Positions 44,861 to 58,734 of a DNA stretch of 64,000 nt are shown piece after piece. The stretch is from the NCBI RefSeq assembly GCF_000156355.1, contig NZ_GG657895.1, positions 1 to 64,000 on the forward strand, given 5' to 3'. The translations under genes and the position numbers were made by a program. Below the pieces are notes generated by a model. The model saw only the letters and a program-made list of their open reading frames with translations, made no database searches and was not told the DNA's origin. How positions within the stretch are numbered: the first letter of the stretch is position 1; the number at the start of each line of letters is the position of its first letter. The stretch is from Methylophaga thiooxydans DMS010. GTDB taxonomy: Bacteria > Pseudomonadota > Gammaproteobacteria > Nitrosococcales > Methylophagaceae.

Positions 44861-46144
44861 TTAGTCGAGAGATAAATCTTCATCTGGCCAATCTAAATCG
44901 CAACAAAACACCATCGTTTTATTATCAAGCTGCACAGCGTGGGATACCGTGATACACATATGCGATCCGGCAACGGATAGATAGGGACGGCTGATTTGGG
45001 ATACACCCGGATTTTGCATAGCTCGGTAATGATAATGTCGGTGCGACCAGTTTGCATTGTCACCAGAAAGCAATGGCGTAAAGCGAATATCCAGTTTTTC
45101 TGTGTATTTAGGTGAATAAAGACTCTTACCGATCTGGTAGCCATTCTCATCCAGCAGAAAACACCGGACAACCCGTTCATCTTCGAATAGTTTGTGGCCA
45201 CATTGATCAAAGACTTTATTTTCTTCAAAAAAACGAACCTCAGCATCATAACGTTCGCGAAAGTCATAAAAATGCTGCTGCAATTTACGATTGTACTGGC
45301 TGCGAACATTTTGCTGTTGGTGTAATAAGGCATCCATCTTGTCGGCAAAGCCTTTATCGCTGACGATGTCTGCTGAAGGCATGGCAAAGTAAAAGCCCTG
45401 TACCATATCGGCATTACTGGAAATGGCCACCATGGCTTCTTGTTCTGTTTCAACCCCCTCAATAATGGCTAGACTGCCTGCTTCATGGATAAGAGAAACA
45501 ATACCGGTTAGGATGCGTTCTATCTTTAATGACTTGGCGGCCTGTTTTACTAGACTGCGATCCAATTTCACTAAGTCTGGTTGTAACTCCCAGATTCGAT
45601 CAAAATTAGAGTGCCCCGCGCCGAAGTCGTCAATCGCAATCAGGCAGCCTAATTCTCTGAAATGGTGAATCAGGTGTTTTAGATACTCTCGATCGTCAAT
45701 CTCACTTTCCAAAATCTCAATCACAATACGCCTTGCGCCTAGGCCACTCTGTGCCATTAACTGACGCATGAAACCTGCATCGGGACGTTCCGAAACCAGA
45801 CACTGTGAATTTAAGTTAAGAAATAACCAACTATCGGGTTCTTGTTGCTCCGCAAAATTGCGGGCATGTAATAATCGGCAAGTACGATCTAACTCAAGGT
45901 GTTGTTTCGTCGATTCAGGGCGCTGAAATATTTGCAACGGCGACACTTGACTACCCTCAATATCGTGGGCACGTACGAGCCCCTCATAACCCACCGGCTT
46001 ACGATGTGCGATACTAAATATGGGTTGAAAAACAGACGACAGCGATAATCCAGCAAACTGCGCAGCGAAGTATTCGTCGTTATATGAAATATCACACATA
46101 CCTAAATCTGGCCTCACAGATACTTGTGCGCGTCTAATTAACAT
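44861..46144 (-). CDS. EAL-domain c-di-GMP phosphodiesterase with C-terminal sensory domain
   Basis: A 427-residue protein. Residues 30-270 are an EAL domain with the catalytic set intact: YEGLVR for ExLxR, FLNLNSQ, IVIEILE, IDDFGAG, LVKLD, IIEGVE and QGFYFA. Residues 290-427 resemble a PAS/Cache-type region (YDAEVRFFEENKVFDQCGHKLFEDE, YLSVAGSHMCITVSHAV). It should degrade c-di-GMP in response to an unknown signal. It sits between the nitrate ABC operon and narK, read in the same direction. Confidence 0.9.
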   Translation of the reverse strand: MLIRRAQVSVRPDLGMCDISYNDEYFAAQFAGLSLSSVFQPIFSIAHRKPVGYEGLVRAHDIEGSQVSPLQIFQRPESTKQHLELDRTCRLLHARNFAEQQEPDSWLFLNLNSQCLVSERPDAGFMRQLMAQSGLGARRIVIEILESEIDDREYLKHLIHHFRELGCLIAIDDFGAGHSNFDRIWELQPDLVKLDRSLVKQAAKSLKIERILTGIVSLIHEAGSLAIIEGVETEQEAMVAISSNADMVQGFYFAMPSADIVSDKGFADKMDALLHQQQNVRSQYNRKLQQHFYDFRERYDAEVRFFEENKVFDQCGHKLFEDERVVRCFLLDENGYQIGKSLYSPKYTEKLDIRFTPLLSGDNANWSHRHYHYRAMQNPGVSQISRPYLSVAGSHMCITVSHAVQLDNKTMVFCCDLDWPDEDLSLD

Positions 46145-48158: not shown

Positions 48159-49562
48159 TTACTCAACGATTTCTTCGCCTTTCAGACCAATCGGAAATTG
48201 CTCCAGATAAGCATTCGGCTTAGTACCATCAAACGTAATGTTGTCGATGAACTCTGTTTGTGGTGCTTTGTAACCGGTTTCTGTATCAAAATCAGGGAAA
48301 TCTGCTGCATCCAGCTTACCTTCAGCAATCAGCTCTTTCGCTGCCACTTCATAGATATCAGGACGGTAAACTTTCTTCGCAATATCCATGTACCAGCTAT
48401 CTGCTTTAGGTTCAGCAATCTGTCCCCAACGACGCATCTGTGTCAGATACCAGGTGGCATCACTGTAGTAAGGGTATGTGGCGTTGTAACGGAAGAATAC
48501 GTTGAAATCTGGCACTTCACGCTTGTCGCCTTTTTCGTACTCAAACGTACCTGTCATGCTGTTAGCGATAACGTCATAATCCGCACCGACATAATTACTT
48601 TGTGACAAGATTTCTACAGCTTCAGGACGGTTGGCATTGTTATTTTCATCAAGCCAATGTGCTGCACGAATTAAGGCTTTAACAACTGCAATGTGAGTGT
48701 TGGGGTTTTCTTCAGCCCATGATTTGCTGACGCCAAACACTTTTTCAGGGTTGTTTTTCCAGATCTCATAGTCGGTAATAACCGGCACACCAATGCCTTT
48801 AAACACAGCTTGTTGGTTCCACGGCTCACCGACGCAATAGCCATAAATAGTGCCGGCTTCCATTGTAGAAGGCATTTGTGGTGGCGGCGTCACTGAGAGC
48901 ATCGCATCGGCTTGCAGTTGACCACTCACATCGCCTTTATGTGGTGCGTAATACCCCGGGTGAATCCCTCCCGCGGCCAGCCAGTAACGTAATTCATAAT
49001 TATGTGTTGATACCGGGAACACCATGCCCATATTAAAAGGCTTGCCTTCCGCTTTATAAGATTCGACAACAGGTTTCAGCGCTTCAGCACTGATTGGATG
49101 CACTGGTTTGCCGTCTTCACCTTTTGGAATATTGGGTTTCATTTGTTCCCAGATATCATTGGAGACGGTAATGCCATTACCATTTAGATCCATGCTAAAC
49201 GCAGTGATAATATCTGCTTTTGTACCAAAGCCAATTGTGGCTCCAAGCGGCTGACCAGCCAGCATATGAGCCCCATCTAAAGTGCCGTCGATAACGCCAT
49301 CAAGTAACACTTTCCAGTTAGCTTGCGCTTCTAAGGTGACATAGAGGCCTTCGTCTTCAAAAAAGAACTTTTCATAGGCAATCGCTAGTGGCGCCATATC
49401 GGTCAATTTAATAAAACCAAATTTCAGATCAGGTTTTTCAACCTCACCTGGTGCAGCATATGCCGTCGTTGCTGACATCAAACCGGTACTCAATACCAGA
49501 CTTGCTGCAGCTAATGTTTTCACCATCTTACGACGTGTGATTGATAAAGGATTTTTGTGCAT
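48159..49562 (-). CDS. nrtA: Nitrate-binding protein with Tat signal
   Basis: A 467-residue NrtA from [24 protein letters not shown], with a twin-arginine signal peptide cleaved after AYA. GGGAGC precedes the ATG. The mature part has the NrtA fold: [57 protein letters not shown]. It binds nitrate in the periplasm for NrtBD. Its start codon lies directly behind a terminator hairpin and a NasT-type leader. An upstream in-frame ATG at 49622 lies within the terminator and is not the start. Confidence 0.93.
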
Positions 49563-49584: not shown

Positions 49585-49633
49585 AAAAAAAAGGCGTCCT
49601 TGCTGAGCATTTTGCTCATCAAGGACGCCTTTA
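49585..49633 (-). terminator. Leader terminator (attenuator) before nrtA
   Basis: Minus strand AAAGGCGTCCTTG pairs with CAAGGACGCCTTT, with an inner TGAGCA/TGCTCA stem, followed by eight T. It ends 23 bases before the nrtA ATG and downstream of the promoter, so it must be read through for expression. Confidence 0.9.
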
Positions 49634-49657
49634 TCCGTATTCAAATTTTTTAAGGTT

Positions 49658-49671
49658 ACCCGTCGTTGGGT
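49658..49671 (-). promoter_or_regulatory. ANTAR-type RNA hairpin in nrtA leader
   Basis: Minus strand ACCC-AACGAC-GGGT. The six-base loop has A at 1 and G at 4, the known recognition pattern of ANTAR proteins such as NasR and NasT. It starts about ten bases after the expected transcription start. The same loop occurs in the porin leader. A second hexaloop hairpin, often present in ANTAR targets, is not obvious. Confidence 0.75.
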
Positions 49672-49690
49672 TGTGACTCAGAGAGTAGTT

Positions 49691-49707
49691 AGCAGTTAAT
49701 ATGCCAA
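49691..49707 (-). promoter_or_regulatory. Sigma-54 promoter of nrtABD
   Basis: Minus strand TTGGCATATTAACTGCT: GG, ten bases, GC. About 120 bases upstream, TGCACCAGTGCTGTGCG (49814-49830) resembles an NtrC enhancer. Confidence 0.75.
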
Positions 49708-49836
49708 CAAAATACCTAAATTAACTTGTGTTATTTATCAGCAGCTTAATATTGACTATGAGATTTTCTGCATATCAAATCCTGCACAACTTTAGTGTGA
49801 CACGTGCCTAAATCGCACAGCACTGGTGCATGTCAA

Positions 49837-50466
49837 TTAAAGCGTTTTTTTCGGCTCGAGTAAGTTTGCCGTTGCCAGAATATTCTGTGCCAGCTGAGCT
49901 AAACGCATGTTCTGATTCATTGCTGAACTGCGTAAAAGACGATAGGCCTCATCTTCAGTGCACTGACGCTGCTCCATGATTAAGCCTTTTGCCCGGTCAA
50001 TCACTTTGCGATCAGCGAGTGATGTTTTTAAATCCTTCAATTGCGTTTTCATCGACTGATATTGCTTGAACCGCAGTAATGCCGTTCGTAAGATAGGTTG
50101 CACCCGATCTTCACGGAAACCATCCACAATATAGGCACTGACACCCGCCTCGATGGCCTGTTCAATCGCATCATCACGATCATCATGGGTAAAGATAACG
50201 ATAGGCATCGGAAACTGTTCATTAATCACTTTAAACTTACTCAGCACTTGATTATCACTGGTATCCATAATCGCGATAATAAGTTGTGGCTCTTCACTCC
50301 ATTTGAGTGATAAAAGCTGTTGTAAAGTACTGCCTTCAAAAATAATTTTGTATTCCGTCGTAGCTAACGCTTCACTCAGTTTGGCCGTCAGCAACGGTTG
50401 CTCACTAATCACTATAGTATTAATGACGTTATCGATAGTCGTGGAATTCATAGCAACGGTGCTCAT
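49837..50466 (-). CDS. nasT: NasT-like ANTAR transcription antiterminator
   Basis: A 209-residue protein. Residues 15-135 form a pseudo-receiver (PQLIIAIMDTSDNQVL, PIVIFTHDDRDDAIEQAIEAGVSAYIVDG), and 150-200 an ANTAR domain (LADRKVIDRAKGLIMEQRQCTEDEAYRLLRSSAMNQNMRLAQLAQNIL). ANTAR binds hexaloop hairpins in leader RNA and prevents termination. It overlaps the NIT-sensor gene by four bases. Expected targets are the leaders of nrtA and the porin. Confidence 0.93.
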   Translation of the reverse strand: MSTVAMNSTTIDNVINTIVISEQPLLTAKLSEALATTEYKIIFEGSTLQQLLSLKWSEEPQLIIAIMDTSDNQVLSKFKVINEQFPMPIVIFTHDDRDDAIEQAIEAGVSAYIVDGFREDRVQPILRTALLRFKQYQSMKTQLKDLKTSLADRKVIDRAKGLIMEQRQCTEDEAYRLLRSSAMNQNMRLAQLAQNILATANLLEPKKTL

Positions 50467-51326
50467 ATCATTCTTGTGTGTTGTTGAGAGGCATAGTGGA
50501 TGATGATGCCAAACACTTTTAGCACCTCATCAATGGCCCGCGTTGAGATATTGAAATAATCATTGGTGTCGATCTGCAAACGCCCTTCTTTGAGTACTTG
50601 CTTTTCTACCAGGTCGACTAACTTACTAACACTATCGTTAATGGCCTTTGCAGCAGCCTGTAAAGTGGTGTGCAAATCATCGTTTTTAATACTGTTAATC
50701 TCTTTCAACAGCTCACGTGTCGTATTTTGTACCGAGATCCGTAAGAAATCGATGATGATTCTATCCGCCCCTTCACACGTACCGTGAGCACAAATACCAG
50801 AACCGATCGCCCGGGTTTGTCCAACTGTTTCGGCTACACGTAGAGTGTCCAGACAGACTTCTGAAACGCGTGTGCAACGATCCAGCATCATGCGATGTAA
50901 ATCATGATCGCGCATCACATCATCTAGTAAGGAAAGCTGGCCATCAATCATTAAACTGTGCTGACGCACCAGGTTATGTGATTTAAGATCACCTGCTAAT
51001 GCATGCTTCTTGAGCCGTGGCCAATGCTCTGCAAATGACTCCCATTGAGGAAATCTTTGCAGCAATCTGCTATCAGTACTGTTGATCAGGCGCTCTATAT
51101 CACTCTGCAAATTCACTAGTTGAGGTTTGAGCTTTGCATTACCCTGATTGATCGCATTACTCGTGCCACGGTGCTTCTGGCAGCTATCAATAATACGTTT
51201 CAGATGAACGGTTAATACGATGCCTTGCTCAATACGCTTTTGTTCTTGCTTTCTTAGCAAGGCAAGGCGATTGAACAAAAACAGCAGACCTATAACGGTG
51301 ACACCACCGATAAACATCGGATACAT
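50463..51326 (-). CDS. Membrane-anchored NIT-domain nitrate/nitrite sensor
   Basis: A 287-residue protein. Residues 1-22 are one membrane helix (MFIGGVTVIGLLFLFNRLAL). The rest is an all-helical NIT domain, known as the nitrate/nitrite-binding part of Klebsiella NasR, with SCQKHRGTSNAINQGN and RVAETVGQTRAIGSGICAHGTCEG in pieces. In NasR, NIT is fused to ANTAR. Here the two parts are separate coupled genes, and no NasS (NrtA-like) partner is next to nasT. It probably controls NasT by direct contact at the membrane. Confidence 0.87.
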   Translation of the reverse strand: MYPMFIGGVTVIGLLFLFNRLALLRKQEQKRIEQGIVLTVHLKRIIDSCQKHRGTSNAINQGNAKLKPQLVNLQSDIERLINSTDSRLLQRFPQWESFAEHWPRLKKHALAGDLKSHNLVRQHSLMIDGQLSLLDDVMRDHDLHRMMLDRCTRVSEVCLDTLRVAETVGQTRAIGSGICAHGTCEGADRIIIDFLRISVQNTTRELLKEINSIKNDDLHTTLQAAAKAINDSVSKLVDLVEKQVLKEGRLQIDTNDYFNISTRAIDEVLKVFGIIIHYASQQHTRMI

Positions 51327-51362
51327 CTTTGCTCTCCAATGACGTTGACGTTGCCTGACTAA

Positions 51363-51476
51363 TTAATCCCAAGCCGCCAAAAAACCAGCCATGATGCCCA
51401 ACGGTGAAATCATGACCATAAACACTAATTTCACCAACTCTTTCAGCAGATACATTAAATCAATCAAATACCCCAT
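51363..51476 (-). CDS. 37-residue membrane peptide before the NIT sensor
   Basis: An ATG with a perfect AGGAGG six bases upstream opens a 37-codon frame, MGYLIDLMYLLKELVKLV..., with one hydrophobic helix over residues 13-35 ending in GFLAAWD. It lies 36 bases before the sensor gene and directly downstream of a sigma-54 promoter, so it is the first cistron of the sensor/nasT operon. No family known. It could be a partner or anchor of the NIT protein. Confidence 0.65.
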   Translation of the reverse strand: MGYLIDLMYLLKELVKLVFMVMISPLGIMAGFLAAWD

Positions 51477-51511
51477 AACAGCCTCCTGCAAGTTAGTTAC
51501 ACAAATGATTT

Positions 51512-51529
51512 TGCATAAGCTGTGCCAAG
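51512..51529 (-). promoter_or_regulatory. Sigma-54 promoter of the peptide-NIT-nasT operon
   Basis: Minus strand TTGGCACAGCTTATGCA: GG, ten bases, GC, a close match to TGGCAC-N5-TTGCA. The start codon of the 37-residue peptide lies 36 bases downstream. Confidence 0.75.
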
Positions 51530-51647
51530 TGTTTTATGTATACATTTCAACACCTTACAAAGCTAAGGGTATTTATCAGTGCTACATCTTGGTGTCTCGG
51601 TTGGCCTGTTGAACGATTGTGGTGCATATTTCGACTGTGGCTCAAAC

Positions 51648-51676
51648 AAAAAAGCCGGGCTAAGCCCGGCTTTTTT
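51648..51676. terminator. Bidirectional terminator after the porin gene
   Basis: AAAAAAGCCGGGC-TAA-GCCCGGCTTTTTT, a strong stem with A- and T-runs on both sides. It ends the porin transcript on the minus strand. Confidence 0.9.
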
Positions 51677-51693
51677 AAGAAGGTGGATAACGA

Positions 51694-52956
51694 TTAAAAC
51701 TTAACCTGACCCCAAAGCCAGAATTTCTCGGTATCGACACCGCCAAATTCTTCATCAGCATTGTAGTCAGCATATTTCACACCTAGGGTGTAATGCTTAT
51801 TGAAGGTTTTCGCCAGCATGATATCGAACTCATCACCGGCATCGAGACTGCCTTCATCAGTTTCAAAATCATGATAAACCGCGACCAGTTTCGCTCCCAT
51901 AACATTACCAACAAGCGTGACGTAAGTATCTTCAAGCCCTGCTGCCGGAGTGTTCAAGAAATTATCTGCCCAACCTTGATACGCATGGTTGGTTCCAAGT
52001 GGTGTGCGAAAACTGAAAGTACCATCACCTTCTTGTGTTTCATGTGACAGTTTTAATAACCAGCCTTTGTATTTACCACCTAACTCGACTAGGGAATAGT
52101 CTTGCTGATCCATTTCACCATCAGCATAATCATCCTGTGTTGCATACTCGGCTGTGTAGACAACTTTAAAGTCATCATTAATAGCTTGTGCGCCAGCCAG
52201 TCTTACACCATAAGTGGCACGTGAATATGCTGAGTCATCCACTGAATCTTCGTAATCCAGAAGATAGGCATAGCCTTCCAAATTACCAATTGGCAGACCA
52301 CTGTATTGTGCATTAAATAAGTGGCTATCCATATGGATTTCACCATCATCCACCATCAATGCAGCCAAATTGCCATCATCACCAAAAATGGTCTGGACTT
52401 TGTCTATATAGGCATAGCTTAATGTGGTATCAGGCAATGATTTATTGACTATGCTTAATGCATCAAACGTCTGCCAGTTCTGACGCCAGCCCACTGTACC
52501 GATGTAACGGTGGAACGGCGCATCGCGAAAGGTAATGATTTGACGACCAAACTTAAATGTCGTGTCAAAGTTGTTGTAAGCCAAATACGCTTGATTGACT
52601 TCGGTCCCTTCTGGATCGGCGACAATCGAATAGCCTGGTTCGCCATTTGTGCCGGCAGCGTTAAATTTATCTGATCCCAAATGCGAGACATCCTCAAACT
52701 CAACAAAACCACTGAAACCATGGAAAGCGCCTGTTTTATAGCCTAACGTGGTGCGCAAGGTAAACGCATCAGCATCATCTAACGCATTATCTTGCTGCAC
52801 AGTCTCATAACGCGCTCTGGCAGAAAAGCTAACCTTACCGCCAGTCAGTGCTTCCATAAACGCATCCTCAGCCTGGGCGGTTGCGGGTACAAATGCAAAA
52901 CTACTCAGACCAGTGGCGATCAGTGTTAATGCGGTAAGTTTTTTCAGTTGTGGCAT
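51694..52956 (-). CDS. Outer-membrane porin, alginate-export-like barrel
   Basis: A 420-residue beta-barrel with a signal peptide (MPQLKKLTALTLIATGLSSF, cleaved after AQA) and a C-terminal Phe (WLWGQVKF), as required for outer-membrane insertion. Aromatic-rich alternating strands run throughout, with GRQIITFRDAPFHRYIGTVGWRQNWQTFDA in the middle, like the alginate_exp group. Its leader has the same sigma-54 promoter, AACGAC hairpin and terminator arrangement as nrtA, so it probably passes nitrate or nitrite through the outer membrane. Confidence 0.88.
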   Translation of the reverse strand: MPQLKKLTALTLIATGLSSFAFVPATAQAEDAFMEALTGGKVSFSARARYETVQQDNALDDADAFTLRTTLGYKTGAFHGFSGFVEFEDVSHLGSDKFNAAGTNGEPGYSIVADPEGTEVNQAYLAYNNFDTTFKFGRQIITFRDAPFHRYIGTVGWRQNWQTFDALSIVNKSLPDTTLSYAYIDKVQTIFGDDGNLAALMVDDGEIHMDSHLFNAQYSGLPIGNLEGYAYLLDYEDSVDDSAYSRATYGVRLAGAQAINDDFKVVYTAEYATQDDYADGEMDQQDYSLVELGGKYKGWLLKLSHETQEGDGTFSFRTPLGTNHAYQGWADNFLNTPAAGLEDTYVTLVGNVMGAKLVAVYHDFETDEGSLDAGDEFDIMLAKTFNKHYTLGVKYADYNADEEFGGVDTEKFWLWGQVKF

Positions 52957-52969
52957 GTTTTATCCTCAT

Positions 52970-53003
52970 AAAAAAAGCCACGATCTGGTGTCCAGATCAT
53001 GGC
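52970..53003 (-). terminator. Leader terminator (attenuator) before the porin gene
   Basis: Minus strand GCCATGATCTGG-ACA-CCAGATCGTGGC followed by seven T, ending 14 bases before the porin ATG. One G:U or mismatch pair lies in the stem. Confidence 0.9.
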
Positions 53004-53046
53004 CTCGTTACCTTGGTTAAATGAATTAGTTTTTATAGATGTATGG

Positions 53047-53060
53047 CTGCGTCGTTGCAG
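53047..53060 (-). promoter_or_regulatory. ANTAR-type RNA hairpin in porin leader
   Basis: Minus strand CTGC-AACGAC-GCAG: the same hexaloop as in the nrtA leader, with a different stem that keeps pairing. It starts about nine bases after the expected transcription start, matching the nrtA geometry. Confidence 0.75.
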
Positions 53061-53078
53061 AGTCACTGACTAGTAATT

Positions 53079-53095
53079 AGCAACCATAATGCCAA
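53079..53095 (-). promoter_or_regulatory. Sigma-54 promoter of the porin gene
   Basis: Minus strand TTGGCATTATGGTTGCT: GG, ten bases, GC. Upstream TGCACCA (53158-53164) and TGGTG near 53181 are NtrC-like half-sites. Confidence 0.75.
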
Positions 53096-56190: not shown

Positions 56191-58623
56191 CTAGCTTACT
56201 TGTTTAATTGGAATGTAGTTTTCTTTGTACTTGGCCGCATGTTCTGCCCAAGGATCATTCTGGGAATTTTCTTGCGATTTATAGAAACGCTCAGCGAGAC
56301 GCTTACGATTTTCTGCATCATCCACCACTAAGGCCTGAACGTGATTTAATCCGACACGTTCAATCCATGGTGCCGTCCGTTCCAGATAATGGCCTTCTTC
56401 ACGATAGAGCTGCATATAAGCTGCGGTGTATTCCATCGCTTCTTCTTCTGTTGCCACTTTGCACAAGAAGTCAGTCGCACGTACTTTGATACCACCGTTC
56501 CCACCGACATGAAGCTCGTAACCTGAATCGACACACACCACACCAATATCTTTAATGGTGGCTTCGGCACAGTTACGCGGACAACCTGATACTGCGATCT
56601 TGAATTTATGTGGTGTCCAACTACCCCAGGTCATTTTTTCCAGTTTAATACCCAGGCCGGTAGAGTCTTGAGTACCAAAACGACACCACTCACTACCGAC
56701 ACAGGTTTTGACGGTACGCAGTGATTTACCATAAGCATGACCAGACACAAAACCGGCGTCACTTAGATCTGCCCACATTTTCGGCAAGTCGTCTTTTTTC
56801 ACGCCCAACAAATCAATACGCTGGCCACCGGTAATTTTCACGGTGGGCACATCATACTTTTCTGAAATATCCGCAATGGCACGCAGTTCACCCGGGTTCG
56901 TTACCCCACCCCAGATTCTTGGCACCACAGAGTACGTACCATCTTTTTGAATGTTGGCATGTACACGTTCGTTAATGAAACGGGATTGTGGATCATCGAC
57001 ATACTCATTAGGCCAGCTGCTTAACATGTAATAGTTCAACGCTGGACGACAAGAATGACAGCCATCAGCATTTTTCCACTCTAACGCTTCCATCAACTGA
57101 GGAATGTTTTTCAGGTCCTGCGCTTTAATGGCGTTTTTGACTTCATCATGAGACAAATCAGTACAACCACACATGGCTTTTTTGCTTGGTGTATCGTTGA
57201 AATCTGTCCCCAGTGACGAAGCCAGAATTTGTTCTACCAGACCGGTACAAGAGCCGCACGACGCTGACGCTTTTGTATGTGCTTTAACTTCATCCAGAGT
57301 GAACAGGCTATGTTCGGCGATGGCTTTAGTGATATCGCCTTTGCAAACACCATTACAACCACAAATTTCGGCATCATCAGGCAAGTTATCTGTTGAGTTT
57401 GCAGCGCCGTGACCAGAGTCGCCCAAGTGATGTTGGCCAAACAGCATGTTTTCGCGGATATCAGAAACATCAGTTGCATCACGCATTAACTGGAAGTACC
57501 ACGTACCGTCAACAGTATCGCCATACAGAACAACACCAATTAAGCGGTCATTCTTAATCACCAGCTTTTTGTAGACGTGGCGGGCGGCATCTTTGAATAC
57601 TAAGTCTTCAGTCTCTTCATCGCCATTAAAGTCACCTGCTGAAAACAGATCAATACCGGTAACTTTTAATTTAGTTGATGTAACCGAGCTGATGTAACGG
57701 GCAATCCCCATTTTCGCCAGGTGGTTGGCACAGACTTTAGCTTGCTCAAACAATGGCGCCACTAAACCAAAGGTCTGATTACGATGCTGCACACACTCAC
57801 CGACGGAATAGATAGTCGGGTCGAATGTCTGCATGGTGTCATCTACCACAATGCCGCGGTCACAGTGAATACCGGCAGAGTCTGCCAGTTCAACATTGGG
57901 ACGAATACCTACTGCCATTACCACCAGATCGGCATCAATGTCACTGCCATCTTTAAAGTGTAATTTCTCAACGCGACCATCACCACTGATTGATTCCGTG
58001 GCATGATTCATTAAGAAGTTCAGACCTTTGCCTTTTAACTCTTCCAACATCAAGTCAGAAGCAGTCTCATCCAACTGCTGGTTCATCAACACGCCACTGA
58101 TATGGACGACGGTAACGTCCATACCTTGCAGCATCAGACCATTTGCAGCTTCCAGTCCCAACAGACCACCACCGATAACGACCGCTTTCTTGTGGGTTTT
58201 GGATGTCGACAACATCTCATCGACGTCTTTGATATCTCGGAAACTAATGACACCCGGTAAGTCTGCCCCCGGAACCGGCAGCATAAAAGGTCGAGAACCG
58301 GTTGCCAGCAAGAGTCGATCATATTCTTCAACAGTGCCATCATCTGCAAGCACCTGACGATTAACACGATCAATCTTGGTAATTTTCTTACCTGCATGCA
58401 GTGTAATGTTATTGTCTTCGTACCATTGCATATCATTAATCATGATTTCATCAATGGTTTTTTCGCCTGCCAAAACAGGGGATAACATAATACGGTTGTA
58501 GTTGCCGTAAGGCTCTTCACCAAAAACAGTAATGTCGTATTTTTCGGGTGCTAACTTGAGTAGTTCTTCAAGTGTTCTGACCCCGGCCATCCCATTACCA
58601 ATAAGGACTAATTTTTCTTTCAT
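56191..58623 (-). CDS. nirB: Nitrite reductase large subunit
   Basis: An 810-residue NAD(P)H nitrite reductase forming ammonium. The order is FAD domain (GNGMAGVRTLEELL), NAD domain (VVIGGGLLGLEAANGL), two BFD-like [2Fe-2S] regions (CGCNGVCKGDITKAI with CGSCTG; CGCTDLSHDEVKNAI with CHSC), ferredoxin-like half, then the sirohaem/[4Fe-4S] ligands CVGSEWCRFG and GCPRNC. First gene of nirB-nirD-nasA, behind an almost perfect sigma-54 promoter. Confidence 0.95.
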   Translation of the reverse strand: MKEKLVLIGNGMAGVRTLEELLKLAPEKYDITVFGEEPYGNYNRIMLSPVLAGEKTIDEIMINDMQWYEDNNITLHAGKKITKIDRVNRQVLADDGTVEEYDRLLLATGSRPFMLPVPGADLPGVISFRDIKDVDEMLSTSKTHKKAVVIGGGLLGLEAANGLMLQGMDVTVVHISGVLMNQQLDETASDLMLEELKGKGLNFLMNHATESISGDGRVEKLHFKDGSDIDADLVVMAVGIRPNVELADSAGIHCDRGIVVDDTMQTFDPTIYSVGECVQHRNQTFGLVAPLFEQAKVCANHLAKMGIARYISSVTSTKLKVTGIDLFSAGDFNGDEETEDLVFKDAARHVYKKLVIKNDRLIGVVLYGDTVDGTWYFQLMRDATDVSDIRENMLFGQHHLGDSGHGAANSTDNLPDDAEICGCNGVCKGDITKAIAEHSLFTLDEVKAHTKASASCGSCTGLVEQILASSLGTDFNDTPSKKAMCGCTDLSHDEVKNAIKAQDLKNIPQLMEALEWKNADGCHSCRPALNYYMLSSWPNEYVDDPQSRFINERVHANIQKDGTYSVVPRIWGGVTNPGELRAIADISEKYDVPTVKITGGQRIDLLGVKKDDLPKMWADLSDAGFVSGHAYGKSLRTVKTCVGSEWCRFGTQDSTGLGIKLEKMTWGSWTPHKFKIAVSGCPRNCAEATIKDIGVVCVDSGYELHVGGNGGIKVRATDFLCKVATEEEAMEYTAAYMQLYREEGHYLERTAPWIERVGLNHVQALVVDDAENRKRLAERFYKSQENSQNDPWAEHAAKYKENYIPIKQVS

Positions 58624-58655
58624 GGATCTCTCCGGTAATAACTATTTTAAGACTA

Positions 58656-58734
58656 TGGCAATGACCGTGCCAGTTCTTAAGGTATTGATATTATTGGAAA
58701 TGTACTTTCCGGAGAGCCCTTAATTGGTGCACCA
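58656..58734 (-). promoter_or_regulatory. Sigma-54 promoter and NtrC-type site of nirBD-nasA
   Basis: Minus strand CTGGCACGGTCATTGCC (58657-58673) matches TGGCACG-N4-TTGC. Upstream is the palindrome TGGTGCACCA (58725-58734), with more GCACCA motifs at 58748 and 58769, at a usual enhancer distance. There is no attenuator in the short leader. Confidence 0.85.

Follow-up and report, generated by a model that had tools for sequence, protein, structure and literature searches.

The RNA targets of ANTAR proteins consist of two short hairpins, the second of which (P2) overlaps the 5' arm of a terminator. This mechanism was defined for EutV by Ramesh et al. 2012 (PMC3369931), who also identified the motif in the targets of AmiR and NasR; these two had initially been viewed as one hairpin plus a terminator, P2 being recognised later (PMC3369936). 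In Paracoccus, NasT binds the leader RNA of nasA (PMC3795266), and the NIT domain of NasR holds nitrate between two conserved arginines of adjacent helices (PMC5424462). We analysed a stretch of 64,000 nt from Methylophaga thiooxydans DMS010 (contig NZ_GG657895.1, positions 1 to 64,000; hereafter, the window) that contains a nitrate assimilation cluster with nasT and two putative attenuator leaders, one ahead of nrtA and one ahead of an outer-membrane porin gene. Both leaders are very probably ordinary two-hairpin ANTAR antitermination switches that place nrtABC and the porin gene under NasT.

The two leaders share one arrangement on the minus strand, which an earlier note on this DNA had described correctly: a sigma-54-type promoter, a hairpin with an AACGAC loop (P1), and an intrinsic terminator close to the start codon. 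The nrtA promoter (TTGGCATATTAACTGCT, 49691-49707) has one mismatch to the pattern YTGGCAYNNNNNTTGCW, and similar sites were seen by eye ahead of many relatives' nrtA leaders. From a predicted +1 at about 49680, P1 (ACCC-AACGAC-GGGU, 49658-49671) starts at about +10, and the terminator (49585-49632; -30.5 kcal/mol without its U tract) lies 22 nt from the ATG at 49562. Overlapping this stem, and missed in the earlier note, is P2 (GGAU-AAAGGC-GUCC, 49623-49636; -3.4 kcal/mol), with A at position 1 (A1) and G at position 4 (G4) of its loop; the 5' arm of the terminator takes in the P2 loop and the 3' side of P2. Each hairpin has four pairs, and their linker of 21 nt is inside the 2-25 nt curation range of PMC8164766. 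An alternative, longer open reading frame (ORF) for nrtA would start at TTG 49622, within the terminator.

The porin promoter (TTGGCATTATGGTTGCT, 53079-53095) matches YTGGCAYNNNNNTTGCW with no mismatches and predicts a +1 at about 53068. P1 (CUGC-AACGAC-GCAG, 53047-53060; four pairs) starts at about +9, and the terminator (52970-53006; -23.1 kcal/mol without its U tract) lies 13 nt from the ATG at 52956. Here too a P2 had been missed (GGU-AACGAG-GCC, 53001-53012; three pairs, A1 and G4, -2.5 kcal/mol), and the terminator begins with the end of the P2 loop and the 3' side of P2. With P2 in both leaders, the earlier proposal of a one-hairpin variant of the ANTAR target gives way to the established two-hairpin rule.

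Judged by sequence, both leaders belong to the already known two-hairpin kind. Like the targets described in PMC3369931 (E. faecalis eut, K. oxytoca nasF, and P. aeruginosa amiE), they have hairpins of at least three pairs, hexaloops with A1 and G4 (AACGAC and AAAGGC for nrtA, AACGAC and AACGAG for the porin), and P2 on the terminator 5' arm. They differ from those targets in preceding nrtA and a porin gene, in the 34-nt linker of the porin leader, and in the U-G pair that closes P2 in both. An Rfam scan of the window yielded no family at its gathering score. In the open-access literature, taken without the supplementary tables of PMC3369931, we found no paper connecting an ANTAR leader with a porin.

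The folds of the whole leaders beat all 200 dinucleotide shuffles (z = -6.0 for nrtA and -4.4 for the porin). In both, the minimum-free-energy (MFE) fold is the terminated state, with P1 and the terminator and no P2; U tracts follow the terminator stem, and pairing of P2 and of the terminator is mutually exclusive. As P2 is weak compared with the terminators, a protein would be needed to hold it. To evaluate chance occurrence, the terminator was kept fixed and the upstream remainder was shuffled 20,000 times. P1 arose in 1.4% (nrtA) and 1.5% (porin) of shuffled leaders, P2 in 4.7% and 3.0%, and both jointly in 0.07% and 0.03%. The loop alone is not rare: the window has 10 copies of AACGACG where 5.5 would be expected.

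When 143 genomes were searched for NasT, 52 gave a match, including that of M. thiooxydans itself, and stretches from 40 of the 51 others were fetched. A script found the full set of P1, P2, and terminator in 24 of 27 nrtA regions; the passing regions of the M. muralis group (L056-L058) are unlike the others. The P2 stems of relatives' nrtA leaders include GGAU/GUCC, AGAC/GUCU, GGGC/GCCG, and AGGC/GCCU, with loops that are mostly AAAGRC or AACGNC, while P2 of their porin leaders is mostly (AU)GGU-AAYGAA-GCC(AU), with five pairs in several relatives and with AAGGU in the nearest kin of the window. Applied to 705 ORF upstream regions from 41 loci, those of nrtA and the porin among them, the same scan returned 41 matches; 12 of these were more than 700 bases from any nrtA or porin match, and several of the 12 look like genuine ANTAR elements that belong to other nitrate genes (L062, L068, L070).

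Covariation was evaluated in two alignments. A1 contained 26 of the 27 nrtA leaders (L054 was dropped) and A2 contained 15 of 30 porin upstream regions, no acceptable pair of P1 and P2 having been seen in L037-L042, L052, L054, L056-L059, L062, L065, and L068. A2 keeps L047 and L066, which fail the script scan, and omits L041, which passes it. The hairpins were chosen by eye among loops with A1 and G4, so the invariance of these positions is by construction, and selecting rows that have the pairs favours structure in both alignments. In A1, 8 of 11 pairs changed on both sides (5/6 in P1, 3/5 in P2). The covariation score was 0.473, compared with 0.221 for shuffled alignments (none of 500 equalled it) and a maximum of 0.161 when the structure was slid; paired cells made up 86.4%, compared with 75.0% after shuffling. 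In A2, 6 of 11 pairs changed on both sides, the score was 0.286 (0.192 shuffled, again equalled by none of 500; maximum of 0.205 when slid), and paired cells were 86.0% against 79.8%. By eye, the nrtA leaders of L042, L045, L046, L048, and L049 carry an extra short inverted repeat in the linker between P1 and P2 (UCCC...GGGA), which could bring the two hairpins together.

Two search models were built, R1 from 18 of the 26 nrtA leaders and R2 from 13 of the 15 porin leaders, with the window leaders among the training members. In the window's own assembly, R1 scored the nrtA leader at 57.8 bits and the next match at 18.1 (150 of 1011 first-pass candidates scored), and R2 scored the porin leader at 52.2 bits and the next match at 19.1 (150 of 1378). 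There was thus one strong element per model, two in all, among the 150 candidates scored for each. In 58 relatives, R1 matched 14 of 30 nasT-bearing genomes at E ≤0.05 and none of 28 nasT-less genomes; the Fisher P of 1.8e-5 overstates the case because of kinship among the genomes and because R1 was trained on rows from 10 of the 14. The four others were G026 (28.6 bits), G073 (31.8), G061 (25.9), and G060 (24.1). R2 matched 27 genomes at E ≤0.5, mostly noise. Nine matched at E ≤1e-8, all nasT-bearing: eight were training genomes, and the ninth (G002) is near-identical to one. The next R2 match (27.1 bits, L167) was not ahead of a porin gene.

Based on the paired hairpins, their overlap with the terminators, the covariation, and strong model matches tied to nasT, the leaders are very probably ANTAR-type attenuators, as the earlier note had proposed. 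Its choice of regulator also holds up: nasT lies between the two leaders, the assembly yielded no other ANTAR gene, and R1 matches occurred only in nasT-bearing relatives, which makes nasT the likely regulator.

Several observations weigh against this reading. The window's porin P2 has three pairs only, including a U-G, and sits above an A-A mismatch, and the porin linker falls outside the 2-25 nt of PMC8164766, a range set for actinobacteria. The full set of elements was found by script in only 14 of the 30 porin regions, the failures being L037-L040, L042, L047, L052, L054, L056-L059, L062, L065, L066 (P1 and P2 without a terminator), and L068; a clear P2 or terminator is mostly absent from the porin leaders of the M. 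aminisulfidivorans and M. muralis groups. Within A2, both-side change in P2 is limited to one of five pairs and to a single row, so the porin covariation is mainly P1-based. Of the R1 results, besides the share of training genomes, the matches in G060 and G061 scored just 24-26 bits, and 16 of the 30 nasT-bearing genomes had no match. P1-like hairpins mostly persist, with P2 or the terminator unclear, in L056-L059 (nrtA and porin) and L037-L041 (porin), and no nrtABC was found within the stretches fetched for L037-L041. In the M. muralis and M. aminisulfidivorans groups, the switch may have moved to another mode or be decaying.

NasT might instead read P1 only and reach the terminator in some other way. 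P1 is the more obvious hairpin, the MFE folds lack P2, and the porin leaders of L038-L040 and L056-L059 retain a P1-like hairpin with no clear P2. However, an A1/G4 P2 sits on the terminator arm in both window leaders, and compensatory changes in the P2 helix occur across nrtA leaders, in three of five pairs on both sides. A one-hairpin variant is therefore highly improbable and, as a description of the window, is refuted by P2 in both leaders. It is equally hard to credit that the hairpins are plain terminators, that of the porin serving the upstream nasA operon, with AACGAC loops arising by chance. Both gaps do hold strong intrinsic terminators, and the loop heptamer is in excess in the window, but the hairpins are located downstream of sigma-54 sites from which nrtA and the porin gene would be transcribed, and P1 and P2 are jointly improbable, conserved, and accompany nasT. 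A translational switch, in which the ribosome site is masked by the terminator stem and by P2, both close to the start codon, would fit terminators that end 13-22 nt before the ATG and some M. muralis-group leaders that, by eye, have hairpins and no clear U-tract terminator; such cases are allowed for in PMC3369931. The U tracts behind the stem in both window leaders are the usual attenuator layout, and we consider masking very unlikely here.

The leaders lie in a cluster with the order nirB-nirD-nasA-porin-NIT-nasT-nrtABC, which is retained with losses across loci of the genus and family. nrtA (48159-49562, minus strand; NMT1_2, 326.7 bits) encodes the binding protein of a nitrate ATP-binding cassette (ABC) transporter. 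nasT (49837-50466, minus) encodes an ANTAR domain (77.6 bits; 81.1 bits in the assembly search) and a receiver-like domain whose score of 23.6 bits is below the cut-off of 30.2. It overlaps by 4 nt the gene of a membrane-anchored NIT-domain protein (50463-51326, minus). The operon is headed by a 37-residue hydrophobic small ORF (MGYLIDLMYLLKELVKLVFMVMISPLGIMAGFLAAWD, 51476-51363, minus), and the porin gene occupies 51694-52956 (minus).

From these sequences we infer that NasT binds the leaders, that they terminate transcription, and that they respond to nitrate. Nitrogen limitation would start transcription via sigma-54, presumably with NtrC. When nitrate is absent, the terminator would form and transcription would end 13-22 nt ahead of the start codon. 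When it is present, NasT would bind the loops of P1 and P2, hold P2, and block the terminator, and RNA polymerase would proceed. Taking the place of NasS, the most likely nitrate sensor is the NIT protein, membrane-anchored and cytoplasmic, which would retain NasT until nitrate binds.

A search of the assembly (94.7% complete) for NasS at E ≤0.01 returned only NrtA itself and no second NrtA/NasS-like gene. One NIT gene was found. Its product scored 24.6 bits against Pfam NIT (cut-off of 24.9), and 24.8 bits in the genome search or 25.2 when the frame includes its neighbours; seven of nine family members match Pfam NIT at E ≤0.01. By eye, the N-terminus forms a hydrophobic helix with basic residues after it, which suggests that the NIT domain is cytoplasmic. 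The top two Protein Data Bank (PDB) fold matches of its model (predicted local distance difference test, pLDDT, 91.5) were chains of NasR, 4akk (E = 1.4e-3 and 1.5e-3; template-modelling score 0.63, root-mean-square deviation 5.9), with no fold match below E 1e-3; a profile search of PDB sequences at E ≤0.1 found no match. R53 and R172 are invariant across the nine members and may be counterparts of the nitrate-binding arginines of NasR.

Scanning genome contigs with two peptide patterns gave 21 NIT relatives among 56 matching stretches, 18 of which have nasT alongside (17 in Methylophaga, one in a gammaproteobacterial bin); the stretches examined for three distant relatives gave no nasT match. 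Homologues of the small ORF occur in 24 of 41 loci, namely all 21 close NIT loci plus three in which a search for NIT found no gene (L042, L053, and L055); the distant NIT locus L064 is without it. Differences among the homologues by codon position (3473, 1566, and 5752) are fewest at position 2 and most at position 3, as in coding sequence. A search of 274 genomes of the class recovered the small ORF from just two, both of the window's genus. The window's assembly contains a paralogue with 48% identity at another site (L157), close to what by eye is a tsaB-like gene.

These features point to a sensor layout (NIT, small protein, and NasT) between two described types. The locus resembles the NasS-NasT systems of Paracoccus (PMC3795266, PMC5424462) and Bradyrhizobium (PMC6759348) in having a NasT-type ANTAR protein in a nitrate assimilation cluster and leader hairpins ahead of nitrogen genes; unlike them, it has a NIT gene beside nasT with no NasS found in the assembly, and its nirBD-nasA operon is without a leader switch. 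With Klebsiella NasR (PDB 4akk; PMC7496416) it shares a NIT nitrate-sensor fold and an ANTAR output for nitrate assimilation. In contrast to NasR, the two are encoded by adjacent genes and not in one polypeptide, the NIT protein carries a membrane helix at its N-terminus, and the ANTAR protein has a receiver-like domain. We found no paper in the open-access literature connecting a separate NIT protein with NasT.

We tentatively propose, while rating it below an even chance, that Methylophagaceae have a third ANTAR sensory layout, in which the cytoplasmic NIT sensor, tethered to the inner membrane, and the conserved 37-residue membrane microprotein keep NasT at the membrane and release it on nitrate, the released NasT opening the genes for uptake alone (porin and ABC importer) and not the reductases. 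In several loci of the family (L042, L044, L046, L047, L049, L051, and L053-L055), no NIT was found next to nasT, which counts against the NIT-based sensing inferred above; accordingly, NIT cannot be the only means of sensing. NasT could instead be governed by an unseen partner or by the 37-residue protein, with NIT having another function. This would agree with the small ORF accompanying nasT in L042, L053, and L055 and with several nasT loci that have neither gene. However, NIT in the window is directly upstream of nasT and overlaps it, and its closest fold is that of a NIT-ANTAR protein, so that such control seems rather unlikely.

The window contains eight sigma-54 sites with ≤1 mismatch to YTGGCAYNNNNNTTGCW, four of which precede nirB, the porin gene, the small ORF-NIT-nasT unit, and nrtA. 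Allowing ≤2 mismatches gave 62 sites against 49.7 expected; weaker matches therefore mean little, and the stricter limit was used. NtrC control is only presumed, as the pattern TGCACYNNNNNRGTGCA with ≤2 mismatches matched 12 times against 11.9 expected. The promoter of the small ORF-NIT-nasT operon (51512-51528, minus) has one mismatch, and no attenuator was seen between it and the operon. Ahead of nirBD-nasA (58623-58673, minus), a site with one mismatch ends 33 nt from the start codon of nirB. The predicted leader of about 23 nt leaves no room for a switch, so nitrate-specific control would fall on the entry steps, the porin and the ABC importer, and nirBD-nasA looks to be under sigma-54 only and free of NasT control here. 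No switch was accepted ahead of nirB, the small ORF or NIT gene, nasA, or narK in the window; a scan match before nirB sits upstream of its sigma-54 site and was rejected as chance. ANTAR-like elements occur ahead of distant nirB-like genes in L062, L064, L068, and L071.

The porin had no Pfam match and scored 31.4 bits against the NCBIfam Opr porin family, far under the cut-off of 150. Nothing useful came from searching PDB sequences or E. coli genomes with it, and homologues on plasmids are annotated as 'alginate export family protein'. The best PDB fold matches of its AlphaFold model (pLDDT of 65.9) were OccD2 and other Occ porins, so this moderate model suggests an OprD/Occ-type barrel. 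Homologues occurred in 64 of 274 genomes of the class. The switch scan covered the 27 loci returned from outside the family, out of 61 other genomes with a match. Elements ahead of the porin gene were found by R1 in L126 (E = 0.0013), L130 (1.5e-5), and L135 (0.011) and by script in L130, L135, and L149; the remaining loci of the 27 had none. L126 and L130 are from one family and L135 from another, and in all three nasT is directly upstream of the porin gene. Downstream of nasT come porin and nrtA-like genes in L130 and L135 and porin and nirB-like genes in L126, with R1 matches ahead of both. L126 shares a genome with L062, which was counted as a porin miss because, by eye, its second loop starts with G, not A.

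The earlier note's placing of the porin in the nitrate regulon thus gains support from a switch that recurs before it in at least two other families. The porin most likely belongs to the nitrate-uptake system; as the same switch precedes it in Methylophaga relatives and in these families, the porin, from a vaguely annotated family for which this suggests a function, is probably the outer-membrane entrance for nitrate, which would pass through the barrel. Elsewhere in the window, an EAL-domain gene (44861-46144, minus) lies between nrtC and narK and stays nearby in several relatives, a position that makes a link of nitrate with cyclic di-GMP possible.

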